Made by a program: the position numbers and the translations under genes. The notes under the pieces are model-generated. The model did not search any database. It was not told the DNA's origin and saw nothing but the letters and a program-made list of their open reading frames with translations. 64,000 bases of DNA from Desulfuromonas sp. CSMB_57 (GTDB lineage: Bacteria > Desulfobacterota > Desulfuromonadia > Desulfuromonadales > Syntrophotaleaceae), in assembly GCF_020194955.2 (NCBI RefSeq), contig NZ_JAFCIY020000023.1, positions 248,001 through 312,000 of the forward strand, in the 5' to 3' direction. Below are positions 54,922-63,188 of the stretch, piece after piece (position 1 is the first letter of the stretch; each line of letters begins with the position of its first letter).

Positions 54922-57561
54922 ATGAGTATGGATTTGATGTCCGAACAGGCTGAAATCATCAATGAATTCCTCCTGGAAAGCCGGGAAATGCTGGATCAGT
55001 TGGAGCCGGCGATAATCGAGTTGGGCCAGAGTTGTCAAAATGTCGACTGTTGGGCCACGACGGGATGCGGTAATGTTGACTGTTCGCGGCATGGTCAATC
55101 CCTTGAAATGCCTTGCTGGCTGGAGATCGGCTATATCGAGAACGGTCTGCAGACCTGTGTGCATGCCTCCTCCGCCGAGGAGTGCCGGTCCTGTCAGGTT
55201 TTCCAGTGCACCAATGGCAACGGGGAAACCATGAACGCCATTTTTCGGCTGTTCCATTCCATGAAAGGCAGTGCCGGATTTCTCGAACTGGACAACATCT
55301 CCCGGGTGGCTCATGCCGCCGAAAGCCTCCTCGATCTGATTCGCTCCGGAAAAATCGCCCTGCGTTCCGAACATGTCAATTTGTTGTGCCAGAGTTGCGA
55401 CTTTGCCCGCGAAGCCATGGAACAGGTTGAAAACAGCCTGGAAGATACGGCCATGCAGGAAGCCGCCGACAACATCGCCGGAATGCTGGCTGAAGCCGCC
55501 GATGCGGCCTTGGCCCGCCTGCTGGGGCAGGTGGCCGGGGGGACAGAGCCGGCCGCCAAAGCGGAGGCCCCGGCCGCGGAGCCAGCCGTCGACGACGATG
55601 CTTTTTTGAAGATGCTGGTCTCGCCGGAGATGCTGGAGCGTTTCGTTCAGGAAGCCGATGAATTGCTGCAGCATGCCGAACAGGCTTTGCTGGCCTGGAC
55701 CAGCGGTCCCCTGGAAGCCGAGGGCATCGGAGAATTGTTTCGCCATGTTCACAGTTTCAAGGGCAATTGCGGATTTTTTGGCTACAAGGCCATGGAAAAG
55801 CTCAGTCACCAGATGGAAACGGTGCTCGACTGGGCCAAGGAAGAGCGCCCCTTTCGCGGCGGGCACCCGGCGGAGACCCTGCTGCAGTGCGTCGATCTTC
55901 TGCGCGATGCGGTAGCCGAGGTCGCCCAGGGCGGCGCCGGAACCATCGCCGATCTGGACCAGCGCCTGGCCGACCTGGCGGCGCATCTGCTCGATGCCGG
56001 CAACGAGGAGGCGACGGAGGTCGCACCGACCGGGACCGGCCCGGCCGCGGCTTTCGACAGTGCTCCGCCATCGGAGCCGGCTCCGGGAGGAATACCGATG
56101 GAGTCGGACGGGGCGGATCCGGCGGTCGAGGAAGCGGCGGAACTCGATGATCGACTGCTGGGGGAGATTCTGGTCGAGGAGGGCATGGTGGATGCTGCTG
56201 CGGTGGATGCCGCCCTGGCATGCCAGCGCAAACCCATCGGCGAACTTCTGGTGGAGCAGGGCAAGGTCCAGCCGGAGCAGTTAAACGAAGCCCTGGCACG
56301 GCAGAAACGTTCCCCGGTGCCGGTCAAGCCCGCCGGCGGCGAAGCCGCCAAGAACACGGCTGCGGTCAACCGTCAGGATATCCGGGTCGAGTTGAGCAAA
56401 CTGGACGATCTCATCAACCTCATCGGCGAGATGGTCATCGCTGAAAACATGTTGTTGCGCAGCCCGGATCTGGAAGGGCTGCAGCTGGACAACTTCAACA
56501 AGGCCGCTCAGCAGATGAGCAAGCTGGTGCGGGATCTACAGGAAATGGCTATGGTCATCCGCATGGTCCCGGTATCGGGCCTGTTCCGGCGTATGATCCG
56601 ACTGGTGCACGATCTGTCCCTGAAATCGGGCAAGAAGGTCGACCTGCAGCTGTTCGGCCAGGATACGGAGATGGACAAGACGGTCATCGAGCAGATCTCC
56701 GACCCTCTGGTTCATCTGCTGCGCAACTCCCTCGACCACGGCCTGGAGCCGCCCCAGGAGCGGCTGGCGGCCGGCAAGCCCGAAAAGGGGACGGTCAAGT
56801 TGTCGGCACGCCACCAGGAGGGCGAGGTCTGGATCGAAGTCGAGGATGACGGCCGAGGTCTGAACCGCGAAAAAATCATTGCCAAGGCCAGGAGCAAGGG
56901 GTTGATTCGGGGCACCGGCGAGCAGCTCAGCGACAAGGAGGTTTACAACCTGATCTTTCAGCCCGGGTTCTCCACTGCCGATCAGATCACCGACGTATCC
57001 GGTCGCGGCGTCGGCATGGACGTGGTCAAAAAGAACCTGGAAAAGATCAAGGGCAAAATCGAAGTGACCAGCGTGCCGGGGCGCGGTACCCGTATTCTGC
57101 TGCGCATTCCCCTGACCCTGGCCATCATCGACGGCATGCTGGTGCGCATCGGTACAGCCAAATGCATCGTGCCGTTGCTGTCCATCCGCGAGATTTTCCG
57201 GCCCAGCCCCGATGCCGTCACCATCATGCCCGACGGCCAGGAACTGGTCCGGGTTCGGGACAATTTCTACCCCGTGCGCTATCTGGACCGGATCCTGCAG
57301 GAGCCTGCCGATTATCAGGGCATTACCGACGGGGTGCTGGTGGTCCTTGAATATCAGAACAATCATCTCTGTCTGCTGGTGGATGAAATCCTCGGCCAGC
57401 AGCAGACCGTGGTCAAGGGGCTGTCCGACTTTATCGGCACCGTACGTATCGCATCGGGCTGCACCATTCTCGGCAACGGGGAGGTGTGTCTGATCCTGGA
57501 TGTGGCGACCCTGGTGGAGGAATCCGCCGGACGGGTCATGCTGCAGGCCCAGGGAGCTTAA
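54922..57561 (+). CDS. cheA: chemotaxis histidine kinase CheA with Cys-rich insert in Hpt1 and MshEN-like linker
   Basis: 879 residues. Order: Hpt1 (residues about 8-200, phosphorylated His112 in RLFHSMKGSAGF) interrupted at about 37-101 by a nine-cysteine insert (C38, C43, C49, C54, C65, C79, C88, C91, C96); Hpt2 (about 225-360, His277 in FRHVHSFKG); tandem MshEN-like helices (LLGEILVEEGMVDAAAVDAAL, IGELLVEQGKVQPEQLNEAL) at about 409-463; dimerisation and kinase domains (NSLDHGLEPP, VEDDGRGLN, GRGVGMDVV); and a CheW-like C-terminus. ATG 54922 follows AAAGGGGC; the longer frame from 54862 has no ribosome site. The insert resembles two-CW metal-binding motifs and could sense redox or metals, which is inference. 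Confidence 0.93.
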   Translation: MSMDLMSEQAEIINEFLLESREMLDQLEPAIIELGQSCQNVDCWATTGCGNVDCSRHGQSLEMPCWLEIGYIENGLQTCVHASSAEECRSCQVFQCTNGNGETMNAIFRLFHSMKGSAGFLELDNISRVAHAAESLLDLIRSGKIALRSEHVNLLCQSCDFAREAMEQVENSLEDTAMQEAADNIAGMLAEAADAALARLLGQVAGGTEPAAKAEAPAAEPAVDDDAFLKMLVSPEMLERFVQEADELLQHAEQALLAWTSGPLEAEGIGELFRHVHSFKGNCGFFGYKAMEKLSHQMETVLDWAKEERPFRGGHPAETLLQCVDLLRDAVAEVAQGGAGTIADLDQRLADLAAHLLDAGNEEATEVAPTGTGPAAAFDSAPPSEPAPGGIPMESDGADPAVEEAAELDDRLLGEILVEEGMVDAAAVDAALACQRKPIGELLVEQGKVQPEQLNEALARQKRSPVPVKPAGGEAAKNTAAVNRQDIRVELSKLDDLINLIGEMVIAENMLLRSPDLEGLQLDNFNKAAQQMSKLVRDLQEMAMVIRMVPVSGLFRRMIRLVHDLSLKSGKKVDLQLFGQDTEMDKTVIEQISDPLVHLLRNSLDHGLEPPQERLAAGKPEKGTVKLSARHQEGEVWIEVEDDGRGLNREKIIAKARSKGLIRGTGEQLSDKEVYNLIFQPGFSTADQITDVSGRGVGMDVVKKNLEKIKGKIEVTSVPGRGTRILLRIPLTLAIIDGMLVRIGTAKCIVPLLSIREIFRPSPDAVTIMPDGQELVRVRDNFYPVRYLDRILQEPADYQGITDGVLVVLEYQNNHLCLLVDEILGQQQTVVKGLSDFIGTVRIASGCTILGNGEVCLILDVATLVEESAGRVMLQAQGA

Positions 57562-57648: not shown

Positions 57649-58128
57649 ATGAGCATTCCGTACAGCACCGGGCTGGCCGTTGACGACAGCCAGATGTCCG
57701 AAGATACCATGCAGGGCAAGCACCTGATCTTTCAGGTTGGCAATGAACAGTACGGCATCGAGATCCGGTTCGTGACGGAGATCGTCGGTATTCAGAAAAT
57801 CAACGAGGTCCCCGATCTGCCCGGCTATATGAAGGGCATCATCAACCTGCGCGGGCGGGTGATTCCGGTGATGGACATCCGCGCCCGGTTCCGTCTGCCG
57901 GCGCGCGAATACGATGAGCGGACCTGCATCATCGTCGTGCAGGTCGGCGAGCAGACCTCCGGTCTGATTATCGACCAAGTCAAGGAAGTGACGGAAATTC
58001 CCCAGGCCGACATCGAGCCGCCGCCGGCCCGCACCGCCGGACAAGCCGGGAATTTTGTGCAGGGCATCGGCAAGGTCGGCGACGAAGTCAAAATTCTGCT
58101 CGATGTCGGACGGTTGTTCCATGCCTGA
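57649..58128 (+). CDS. cheW: chemotaxis coupling protein CheW
   Basis: 159 residues with the CheW fold motifs HLIFQVGNEQYGIEIRFVTEIV, PGYMKGIINLRGRVIPVMDIRARF and IIDQVKEVTEIP. CheW links receptors to CheA. AGAGGTGG precedes the ATG. It follows cheA after 87 bases and overlaps cheR by eight bases. No receptor gene is present in the window. Confidence 0.95.
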   Translation: MSIPYSTGLAVDDSQMSEDTMQGKHLIFQVGNEQYGIEIRFVTEIVGIQKINEVPDLPGYMKGIINLRGRVIPVMDIRARFRLPAREYDERTCIIVVQVGEQTSGLIIDQVKEVTEIPQADIEPPPARTAGQAGNFVQGIGKVGDEVKILLDVGRLFHA

Positions 58129-58996
58129 GTCCCTGCCGACGATGCCGAAAGCCTTCCCCGACAGCGGGGTGATGATGGCGATCAGCGACGAGGAGTTCGA
58201 CCTTCTGCGACGGTTGATCTACGATCGGTTCGGCATCAATCTGACGGATCAGAAACGTTCCCTGCTGGTAGGGCGGCTGCAAAAGGTTCTGCGCCAGGCG
58301 GGGGTCCAGTCCTTTCGGCACTACTACGAAAGCCTGATCAGCGATCCGACGGAAACGGCTCTCAGCAAACTGGTGGATCGGATATCCACCAACCATACCT
58401 ATTTTTACCGGGAAAAATCGCATTTCGATTTCTTTTCCCAAACCGTCCTGCCGGCCGTATCCGCCCGTTTACGCACGGCCAACAGTCGCGATCTGCGGGT
58501 CTGGTGCGCGGGGTGCTCCAGCGGCGAAGAAGCCTACATGCTGCTGATGCTGATGCATGAATTTTTCGGACCCGAGTACGCCCGCTGGGATGCCGGCGTG
58601 CTGGCCACGGATATTTCTTCCCGGGTGCTGGATATCGCGCGCCAGGGGACTTATCCCGACGAGCGGGTGCGGATGCTCCCGGAATCCTTGAGGCAACGCT
58701 ATTTTCGGCGACTTGCGGACGGGACCTGGTCGGTTGTGGATGGATTGCGTCAGGAAGCGACCTTTCGCCGCTTCAACCTGATGAACGAAACCTTTCCCTT
58801 CAAAAAACCCTTTGACGTGATCTTCTGCCGCAACGTCATGATTTACTTCGACGAACCGACGCGTCGCCGGTTGGTGGAAAAGTTTCATCGACATCTGGCG
58901 CCGAACGGTTACTTTTTCCTCGGTCACTCCGAAACCCTGGGCCGGGCCCAGAGCCTGTTCCATTATCTGGGTCCGGCTGTGTACCAGAAGAAATGA
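58121..58996 (+). CDS. cheR: chemotaxis protein methyltransferase CheR
   Basis: 291 residues: N-terminal helical domain (FDLLRRLIYDRFGINLTDQKRSLLVGRLQKVLR), STNHTYFYREKSHF, the SAM motif RVWCAGCSSGEEAYML, and FDVIFCRNVMIYFDEPTRRRLVEKF near the end. CheR methylates receptor glutamates. The ATG lies in an ATGCCTGA overlap with the cheW stop. Confidence 0.95.
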   Translation: MPESLPTMPKAFPDSGVMMAISDEEFDLLRRLIYDRFGINLTDQKRSLLVGRLQKVLRQAGVQSFRHYYESLISDPTETALSKLVDRISTNHTYFYREKSHFDFFSQTVLPAVSARLRTANSRDLRVWCAGCSSGEEAYMLLMLMHEFFGPEYARWDAGVLATDISSRVLDIARQGTYPDERVRMLPESLRQRYFRRLADGTWSVVDGLRQEATFRRFNLMNETFPFKKPFDVIFCRNVMIYFDEPTRRRLVEKFHRHLAPNGYFFLGHSETLGRAQSLFHYLGPAVYQKK

Positions 58997-59008
58997 TTTG
59001 ATACGCCT

Positions 59009-60070
59009 ATGACAGCCAAGATAAAAGTTCTGGTCATCGATGATTCGGCTCTGGTGCGGCAGATCCTCACCCAGGGGCTGGCCCTGGATCCGGCCATCGA
59101 GGTGGTCGGCAGTGCCGGAGATCCCTATATCGCCCGGGACAAAATCGTTCGCCTGCAGCCCGACGTGCTGACCCTGGACGTGGAGATGCCGCGCATGGAC
59201 GGCGTGGATTTTCTGCGACGCTTGATGCCTCAGTATCCTCTGCCCGTGGTGATGGTCAGTTCCCTGACCCAGAAGGGCAAGCAGATCACTTTGGATGCCC
59301 TGGATGCCGGCGCGGTCGATTTCGTTTCCAAGCCCACCACCGATATGGCTCAGGGCCTCAAAAACATGCTGCAGGAACTGCGGGCCAAGATCAAAATGGC
59401 GGCAACGGCCAATGTTGCTCACTGGAAGGCGGATCGGCGCGCCGTCACCTCCCAGTTGCGCACCATCGAGCGGCGGGCCCTGGCCGAATCCACGGACAAG
59501 GTTGTCGTCATCGGGGCTTCCACGGGGGGTACCGAGGCGATTCGAAAAATCATTACCCGCTTTCCGGAGACCATGCCCGGGGTGGTGATCGTTCAGCACA
59601 TGCCCGCCGGCTTCACCCGCATGTTCGCCGAGCGCCTCAACCAGTTGTGCGCCATGGAAGTCAAGGAAGCGGTTTCCGGGGATCGGATCATGCCCGGCCG
59701 GATTCTCATCGGCCCGGGCGGCCTGCATATGGAGGTGACGCGTTCCGGGGGCCATTACCAGGTGCGCTGCGAAGCGGGCCCGACGGTCAAGGGCCACTGT
59801 CCGTCGGTGGATGTGCTGATGCACTCGGCGGCCCGTCATGTCGGCGCCAACGCCGTGGGGGTGATGTTGACCGGTATGGGTTCGGACGGCGCCGAAGGCA
59901 TGCTGGCCATGCGCAAGGCCGGCGCCCGCAACATCGCCCAGGACGAAGCCAGTTGCGTGGTGTTCGGCATGCCGCGGGTCGCTTATGAACTGGGCGGCGC
60001 GGAGAGCCTGGTGTCTCTCGACCATATGGCTGGACGTATCGTCGATTTGCTTGGGGAGCGAAAGATATGA
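59009..60070 (+). CDS. cheB: chemotaxis methylesterase/deamidase CheB
   Basis: 353 residues: N-terminal receiver (KVLVIDDSALVRQIL, phosphoacceptor Asp in LTLDVEMPRMDG), a linker and a C-terminal methylesterase with the catalytic Ser in VIGASTGGTEA, His in VVIVQHMPAGF and Asp in GMGSDGAEGM. CheB removes methyl groups from receptors. It overlaps cheD by four bases (ATGA). Confidence 0.96.
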   Translation: MTAKIKVLVIDDSALVRQILTQGLALDPAIEVVGSAGDPYIARDKIVRLQPDVLTLDVEMPRMDGVDFLRRLMPQYPLPVVMVSSLTQKGKQITLDALDAGAVDFVSKPTTDMAQGLKNMLQELRAKIKMAATANVAHWKADRRAVTSQLRTIERRALAESTDKVVVIGASTGGTEAIRKIITRFPETMPGVVIVQHMPAGFTRMFAERLNQLCAMEVKEAVSGDRIMPGRILIGPGGLHMEVTRSGGHYQVRCEAGPTVKGHCPSVDVLMHSAARHVGANAVGVMLTGMGSDGAEGMLAMRKAGARNIAQDEASCVVFGMPRVAYELGGAESLVSLDHMAGRIVDLLGERKI

Positions 60071-60555
60071 GACAGGTCGTCCTGGGCATCGGCGATTTGG
60101 GGGCTTCCAACACCCCGGGCGAGGTGGTCAAAACCTATGCCTTGGGGTCCTGCGTTGCGGTGATGATGCTCTACCCCAAGACGCGGGCCGTCGGCATGGT
60201 ACATGTCGCCTTGCCCGAGTCCAGCATCAATCCGGCCAAGGGGCAGTCCTGTCCCGGGTATTTTGCCGATTTGGGGGTACCCCTGTTGTTGCGGGAAATG
60301 GTGCGCCTGGGTTGCCCCGGCAATGGGCGGGGAATCATCGTCAAGCTCGCCGGGGGTGCCTCCGTCATGGGCCACAACGATACCTTCAATATCGGCAAGC
60401 GCAATATCCTGGCGGTGAAACGCTCCCTCTGGTCCCTGGGCATGGGTGCCATCGCCGAAGATGTGGGGGCCAATTACAGTCGTACCGTAACCATGTCCGT
60501 CGACAGCGGACTCATCACCATATCCTGTCCGGGGCGCGGGCAGTGGGAAATATAG
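60067..60555 (+). CDS. cheD: chemoreceptor glutamine deamidase CheD
   Basis: 162 residues with the active-site Cys in YALGSCVAV, His in VGMVHVALPES and the GGASVMGHNDTFNIGKRN segment. CheD deamidates receptor glutamines and, in Bacillus, interacts with CheC. Its presence with CheX/CheC proteins here fits that kind of adaptation system. Confidence 0.95.
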   Translation: MRQVVLGIGDLGASNTPGEVVKTYALGSCVAVMMLYPKTRAVGMVHVALPESSINPAKGQSCPGYFADLGVPLLLREMVRLGCPGNGRGIIVKLAGGASVMGHNDTFNIGKRNILAVKRSLWSLGMGAIAEDVGANYSRTVTMSVDSGLITISCPGRGQWEI

Positions 60556-62732: not shown

Positions 62733-63188
62733 ATGGACCTCATGAATTGTATTTCCGAAGCGACCCAGGAGATCTTCCAATCGATGCTGGCCTTCGAGGT
62801 GCAGCCCGGCGCGCCCTTGGTCGAGCGACAGAAGATGTTTCGCGACACGGTCAGCGGCATGGTGGGCATGGCCGGTCTGTATCGCGGCATGCTGGCCATT
62901 CATGTCCCCAACGCCATCGCCAAAAACATCACCAGCACCTTCCTTTGCATCGAGGTCGAGGACATTGACGATGATGTCAAGGATGCCATCGGAGAACTGG
63001 CCAATATGTTGGCCGGCAGCGTAAAATCCATGCTGACGGATAACGGTAAAGATGTTAAACTCGCCATTCCGTCGGCCGTCTGCGGCCGCGAATACGAGGT
63101 CGAGTGCCTGGCCGATGGTGACGGTGTCGTGGTGCCCTTCCAGTTGGAGGGGGGTGAATTTCTCGTGGAGTGCTTTTTGCAAAAATAG
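62733..63188 (+). CDS. cheX: CheX/CheC-type phosphatase (second copy)
   Basis: 151 residues with the complete phosphatase signature DAIGELANMLAG and surrounding CheX features (GLYRGMLAIHVPNAIAKNITSTFL). AAGGAGCC precedes the ATG. An intrinsic terminator follows about 70 bases downstream, closing the operon. Confidence 0.87.
   Translation: MDLMNCISEATQEIFQSMLAFEVQPGAPLVERQKMFRDTVSGMVGMAGLYRGMLAIHVPNAIAKNITSTFLCIEVEDIDDDVKDAIGELANMLAGSVKSMLTDNGKDVKLAIPSAVCGREYEVECLADGDGVVVPFQLEGGEFLVECFLQK

Follow-up and report, generated by a model that had tools for sequence, protein, structure and literature searches.

Input to the chemotaxis kinase CheA, whose P1 domain is of the Hpt type (PF01627), is normally thought to arrive via receptors and CheW. 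Two papers (PMC6715182, PMC13370339) describe how redox signals are coupled to chemotaxis through CZB (PF13682), a cysteine-zinc domain with a 3His/1Cys site in the helical bundle of receptors, and this redox input serves here as a working analogy. CheA proteins that carry a c-di-GMP-binding MshEN domain have also been noted already, in a passage of PMC5013675 whose text makes no mention of a cysteine module. The two-CW domain (NCBIfam NF045718), whose cysteines run CW–C–C–CW–C–C–C and end in a CxxC, is a known but little-studied module: the term "two-CW domain" is absent from the literature searched, which also gave no account of its function.

Here, we analyze a CheA encoded in a window of 64,000 nucleotides from Desulfuromonas sp. 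CSMB_57 (contig NZ_JAFCIY020000023.1). This protein has a c-di-GMP-binding domain in common with the MshEN-CheA fusions and, unlike anything in the passage that describes those, bears a cysteine module in the first of its two Hpt domains. The placement of the module in CheA is real, conserved, and apparently previously uncommented: our literature search, which misses most subscription papers, returned no report of the module in CheA or in HAMP domains, the main text of a Geobacter chemotaxis paper (PMC2577667) contains neither "cysteine" nor "insertion," and the portions of the Pelobacter carbinolicus genome paper (PMC3543383) that describe che systems do so without a cysteine insert.

RESULTS

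A cysteine insert interrupts the first Hpt domain of CheA

The product of cheA (Table 1) is a CheA histidine kinase of the flagellar type, in which Pfam recognizes two Hpt stretches together with H-kinase_dim, HATPase_c, and CheW domains, and its start site is common to the orthologues. The HxxKG phosphoacceptor motif is present twice, at His112 (which, from the known Hpt/CheA P1 signature, we take to be the phosphoacceptor) and at residue 277. P1b comes after the insert-bearing P1a, and most CheA orthologues likewise have two such motifs. In a BLAST comparison of 46 CheA rows, 29 have the MshEN-like stretch: 21 of the 35 that carry the insert, all 8 that lack it, and 0 of 3 in the outgroup.

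Table 1. Features of cheA and its surroundings, with positions in the window
Feature	Position	Strand	Remarks
cheA, 879 aa	54922..57561	+	order P1a (with insert)–P1b–MshEN-like linker–P3–P4–P5
Helix A of first Hpt, residues 3-39	54928..55038	+	AlphaFold model
Cysteine module, residues 38-97	55033..55212	+	core Cys 43, 49, 54, 65, 79, 88, and 91, plus Trp44 and Trp66
Nine cysteines, residues 38, 43 (CW), 49, 54, 65 (CW), 79, 88, 91, and 96	55033..55207		
Helix B of first Hpt, residues 92-120, carries His112	55195..55281	+	AlphaFold model
His112 codon, putative phosphoacceptor within FHSMKGSAGF	55255..55257	+	invariant in aligned rows
Second Hpt (P1b), without insert, HxxKG at residue 277	55627..55926	+	Pfam Hpt at residues 236-335, profile 1-82 of 84
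MshEN-related c-di-GMP-binding motif, residues 413-461, where a P2 linker would be	56158..56304	+	NF053729, 48.2 bits (cut-off 38)
cheW, cheR, cheB, cheD, downstream of cheA	57649..60555	+	named from reading the sequences
CheX-like protein, downstream of the che genes	62733..63188		recognized by eye

Half of the cysteines of this CheA (9 of 18) fall within 60 residues, whereas none of 20,000 random placements of 18 cysteines put nine into any 60-residue stretch. The sequence-only reading had described a nine-cysteine insert between the first Hpt helix and the helix that carries His112, and its cysteine spacings, coordinates, and histidine number are all confirmed; the extent that it gave (positions 55030 to 55224, equal to residues 37 to 101) is slightly wider than the insert proper, residues 38 to 97.

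An AlphaFold model of P1 built from three sequences keeps the Hpt bundle, with helices A and B (Table 1) followed by helices at residues 124 to 141, 149 to 172, and 179 to 195, and the solved structures closest to it are the CheA P1 domains 2lp4, 1i5n, and 3kyi. The Pfam Hpt profile matches P1a from position 22 to 77 of 84 (48.3 bits) when the insert is present and from 1 to 79 (59.7 bits) once residues 38 to 97 are removed. From the helices of the model, the matches to CheA P1 structures, and the longer Hpt match without the insert, it follows that a whole Hpt bundle bears the module in its A-B loop; that is, the insert interrupts an otherwise intact Hpt domain, in the loop just ahead of the His112 helix. 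P1a thus has both its Pfam Hpt match and its structural neighbors in common with known CheA P1 domains but differs from an ordinary P1 in the 60-residue cysteine module of the A-B loop and in the second, uninterrupted Hpt domain that comes next. Within the P1 model, pLDDT falls below 50 at residues 40 to 82 and 92 to 98, and the insert modeled alone from two sequences reaches a mean pLDDT of 58.6 and a pTM of 0.42; since both models are of low confidence over the insert, we claim neither a fold nor a metal-site geometry from them.

The insert is a separable part with a fixed cysteine core

When the first 198 residues of CheA were searched against 58 related genomes, 28 of these (that of the window included) gave a match across the insert, 7 matched in the two flanks only (the same cheA with the insert cleanly absent), and the other 23 matched CheA more weakly, save for one genome that had no match. 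Reading the genes showed the insert at 27 of the 28 loci, and the remaining one (L028) was confirmed by its own sequence. The same architecture, which the sequence-only reading proposed to look for in other genomes, therefore recurs in 27 further genomes of the 58, as well as in two CheAs from another class (L134 and L135) found in the phylum-wide search described below. All seven insert-less genomes belong to the order of the window organism, and an eighth insert-less orthologue (L043, Desulfobulbaceae) came from the genome collection. In these eight proteins, helix A continues into the His helix, with approximately residues 38 to 97 gone and the flanks kept (in L043, a few different residues occupy the joint). 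Being cleanly present or absent among matching orthologues, the insert behaves as a separable part.

Conservation was assessed in 35 insert-bearing orthologues, which include the CheA of the window and exclude the duplicates L003 and L042. Seven cysteines (43, 49, 54, 65, 79, 88, and 91) and both tryptophans (44 and 66) are invariant in all 35, as are Arg56, Leu67, and Gly70 of the insert. The sequence-only reading had taken all nine cysteines as the motif, and these seven bear it out, but the outer two do not: Cys38 is present in 30 of the 35, with Val in its place in the other 5, and only 2 retain Cys96. The same reading had named random cysteine positions among homologues as an argument against it; instead, seven positions are fixed. 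Both TGC and TGT are used at each of the seven core positions (Cys65 is TGC in 34 of 35), and mean identity to the CheA of the window is 56% over the insert, versus 75% in the flank before it and 71% in the flank after. The five proteins with Val in place of Cys38 form family f14 (L027, L029, L101, L102, and L133), and in them the next residue is His, a possible ligand swap that may go back to a single inherited event.

With the insert columns removed, a tree of 46 CheAs groups the eight insert-less orthologues into a single clade (95/95; recovered in 96% of 200 bootstrap trees). This topology implies one change among the orthologues, in which the insert was either gained or lost; with branches of length 10 leading to the outgroup CheAs, the root is unsure, and the tree does not decide between the two.

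The insert is related to the two-CW domain

One NCBIfam family, NF045718, matches the insert alone, at 17.9 and 16.6 bits against a cut-off of 35. It matches all 17 inserts scanned (best E 7e-06), with every score shown under that cut-off. A scan of the 58 genomes with NF045718 at E up to 0.1 gave 30 matches, 5 of which pass the cut-off; of the other 25, 13 fall on the CheA insert, at 15.1 to 22.4 bits and so below it, and the CheA insert is the only match in the genome of the window (11.1 bits). The ordered cysteine core, the two CW pairs, and the final CxxC are present in the CheA insert as in the two-CW domain, and across the 13 rows of a mixed alignment, six cysteines and one tryptophan never vary.

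Profile comparisons strengthen the link to two-CW proteins that the sequence-only reading had drawn. In hhalign, the CheA inserts (alignment A1) match an alignment of 14 HAMP-nested modules (A5) with a probability of 98.6 and E of 1.1e-15, and seven chemoreceptors with a probability of 97.0 and E of 1.1e-10; NF045718 in turn matches all 14 rows of A5, the first at 43 bits, which is over the cut-off. It also matches 10 of the 13 rows of alignment A3, with none listed for whole chemoreceptor-type proteins, so three chemoreceptor-type modules apparently miss this family and are linked to it through the CheA inserts. What sets the CheA insert apart from the two-CW domain and its relatives is its host (an Hpt domain), its scores below 35 bits, and the position of its fifth cysteine, 14 residues after the CW cysteine versus 8 in many relatives. 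On sequence grounds, the CheA insert is best described as a divergent cysteine module of the two-CW type.

Comparisons with known metal-binding folds gave little. With the A1, A3, and A5 profiles, searches of solved chains at E up to 10 returned 2, 0, and 12 matches, none of them convincing (best E 0.25), and the matches to Pfam metal domains are scattered, weak, and confined to single rows of A5. A match to the small subunit of 4-hydroxyphenylacetate decarboxylase (E 5.6) was dropped as chance. CZB has no Pfam match in CheA or in the insert at E up to 1, and no sequence relation between CZB and the CheA module was found.

Relatives of the module are nested in HAMP domains

Relatives were sought with a profile of 17 inserts in 277 genomes of the class and in 395 genomes sampled from the phylum. 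In the class, 53 of the 277 genomes between them contained 33 CheA-type matches and 29 others, and the phylum sample had matches in 75 of its 395 genomes; the same profile found no second copy of the module in the genome of the window at E 0.001, and scans of viral contigs gave no relative. We examined all 29 of these other class loci and 20 loci from the phylum. Of 50 proteins read (L104 to L153, three of them CheA), 49 fit the pattern C-x4-6-C-x3-8-C ... C[WFY] ... CxxC, which, for rows chosen by their similarity to the insert, is a description rather than an independent test; the exception, L119, has a sequence that begins within the module. In the same 50, the distance from the CW cysteine to the next-to-last cysteine is 22 to 24 in 47 and 26 in two, and the fifth cysteine of the relatives lies at +8, +11, +13/14, or +17 and is missing in two.

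Twenty module-bearing proteins were scanned with Pfam. In half of them (10 of 20), the HAMP match is limited to the start of the profile: it ends at position 23 to 31 of 53, with 2 to 12 residues left before the module; in three, it covers only the last part, starting where the module ends; and in two, only a second, downstream HAMP is matched. With the module removed, the match spans nearly the whole profile in all four proteins tested, and the scores rise (from 24.2 to 26.9, 31.1 to 37.9, 27.7 to 28.8, and 32.7 to 40.3 bits). HAMP matches that are interrupted at the module and extended without it place the module between the two HAMP helices, just as it lies between helices A and B of Hpt. 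The module is not peculiar to CheA: many relatives are nested in the HAMP domains of chemoreceptors and kinases, so that one cysteine module occupies the helix-helix loops of two unrelated signaling folds, Hpt and HAMP. The connector position within a signaling bundle is common to both, but the HAMP hosts are membrane-proximal parts of a receptor or kinase, whereas the host in CheA is a phosphotransfer domain.

The remaining five of the 20 proteins are without a HAMP match (L104, L108, L118, L131, and L142). Among these, L104 is a PAS histidine kinase, and GGDEF domains occur in the proteins L108, L118, and L142: in L108 and L118, a two-CW-like module stands ahead of GGDEF, between two predicted-looking helical stretches, and in L142, GGDEF follows a module with CF replacing the second CW. 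Two chemoreceptors (L105 and L125) combine a CZB zinc-binding domain with a HAMP-nested cysteine module in one protein, and even there CZB stays a separate domain.

DISCUSSION

The earlier interpretation, that phosphotransfer by this CheA may respond directly to redox state or metal, is partly supported, in that the comparisons point to a conserved, separable, two-CW-related module in the loop before the His112 helix, with relatives in sensor proteins. CheA is cytoplasmic and HAMP lies after a membrane helix, so the module has a cytoplasmic position in both; strictly conserved beside His112, and with relatives inside many membrane sensors of the phylum, it is a candidate for a built-in metal or redox sensor. 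We propose that the core thiolates would bind a cytoplasmic metal center, either zinc or an iron-sulfur cluster; that loss, oxidation, or exchange of this center would alter the packing of helices A and B, or the docking of P1a on the ATP-binding domain or CheY; and that redox state or metal supply could in this way tune phosphotransfer through P1a within the kinase itself, with P1b, which is without the module, staying unaffected. Of these steps, metal binding is the likelier, and the module probably binds metal. Its sensing role is the weaker step, one that we favor only tentatively, and the same hesitancy attaches to the reading as a whole, in which a two-CW-type module in P1a would act as a metal or redox input to phosphotransfer, although it is the best explanation overall. 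The odd number of core cysteines and the shifting or missing fifth cysteine do not point to any one known metal site, and the insert's score below the NF045718 cut-off, the lack of a second copy in its own genome at the threshold used, and the seven genomes of the same order without the insert all count against a metal or redox sensor.

A serious rival is that the module is a structural metal knot, whose tightly bound zinc holds the long loop or forms a docking surface (for CheY, CheX, or the array) and senses nothing. Strict cysteine conservation is equally expected of a structural zinc site, and the module comes and goes without visible change in the flanking Hpt domain, as a passive decoration would. 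A similar module, however, also turns up in HAMP connectors and next to GGDEF and kinase domains, which are input parts of sensors and suit a signaling role better than mere support, and we consider a purely structural knot rather unlikely. We regard as improbable a thiol-disulfide switch that dispenses with metal, in which core cysteines would pair under oxidative stress and the loop would open on reduction: so many conserved cysteines in a small domain beside the phosphoacceptor helix would fit such a switch, but stable disulfides are unlikely in what is taken to be a cytoplasmic setting, seven core cysteines cannot all pair, and the fixed spacing with its final CxxC (in 49 of 50 relatives, chosen by homology) looks like the spacing of ligands. 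The lower conservation of the insert relative to its flanks could suggest neutral or decaying sequence, or even an artefact of assembly or reading; with seven cysteines and two tryptophans unchanged across 35 orthologues that come from many unrelated assemblies, and a reading frame open throughout, such explanations are extremely improbable, and conservation rules out artefact and decay unless all 35 genes share one error.

If the module in P1a is indeed a metal or redox input, a cysteine module in the phosphotransfer domain would bypass the receptors. Its presence in HAMP connectors too points to a general route by which helical signaling bundles in this phylum could acquire a metal or redox input. 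More speculatively, and with greater doubt than attaches to the reading for CheA itself, a mobile cysteine-metal module might plug such an input into the helix-helix loops of unrelated bundles: in HAMP, it would act on receptors and kinases, and in CheA, on the phosphotransfer domain, where it would gate signaling downstream of all receptors and perhaps shift phosphate between P1a and P1b.

Module-bearing and module-less orthologues that share a gene neighborhood are natural controls for a direct test. Both cheR and cheB adjoin cheA at all six insert-less loci examined, and cheR also does so at the insert-bearing locus L133. Of 10 loci compared, some of them too short to tell, 6 have a relative of the divergent upstream gene next to cheA.
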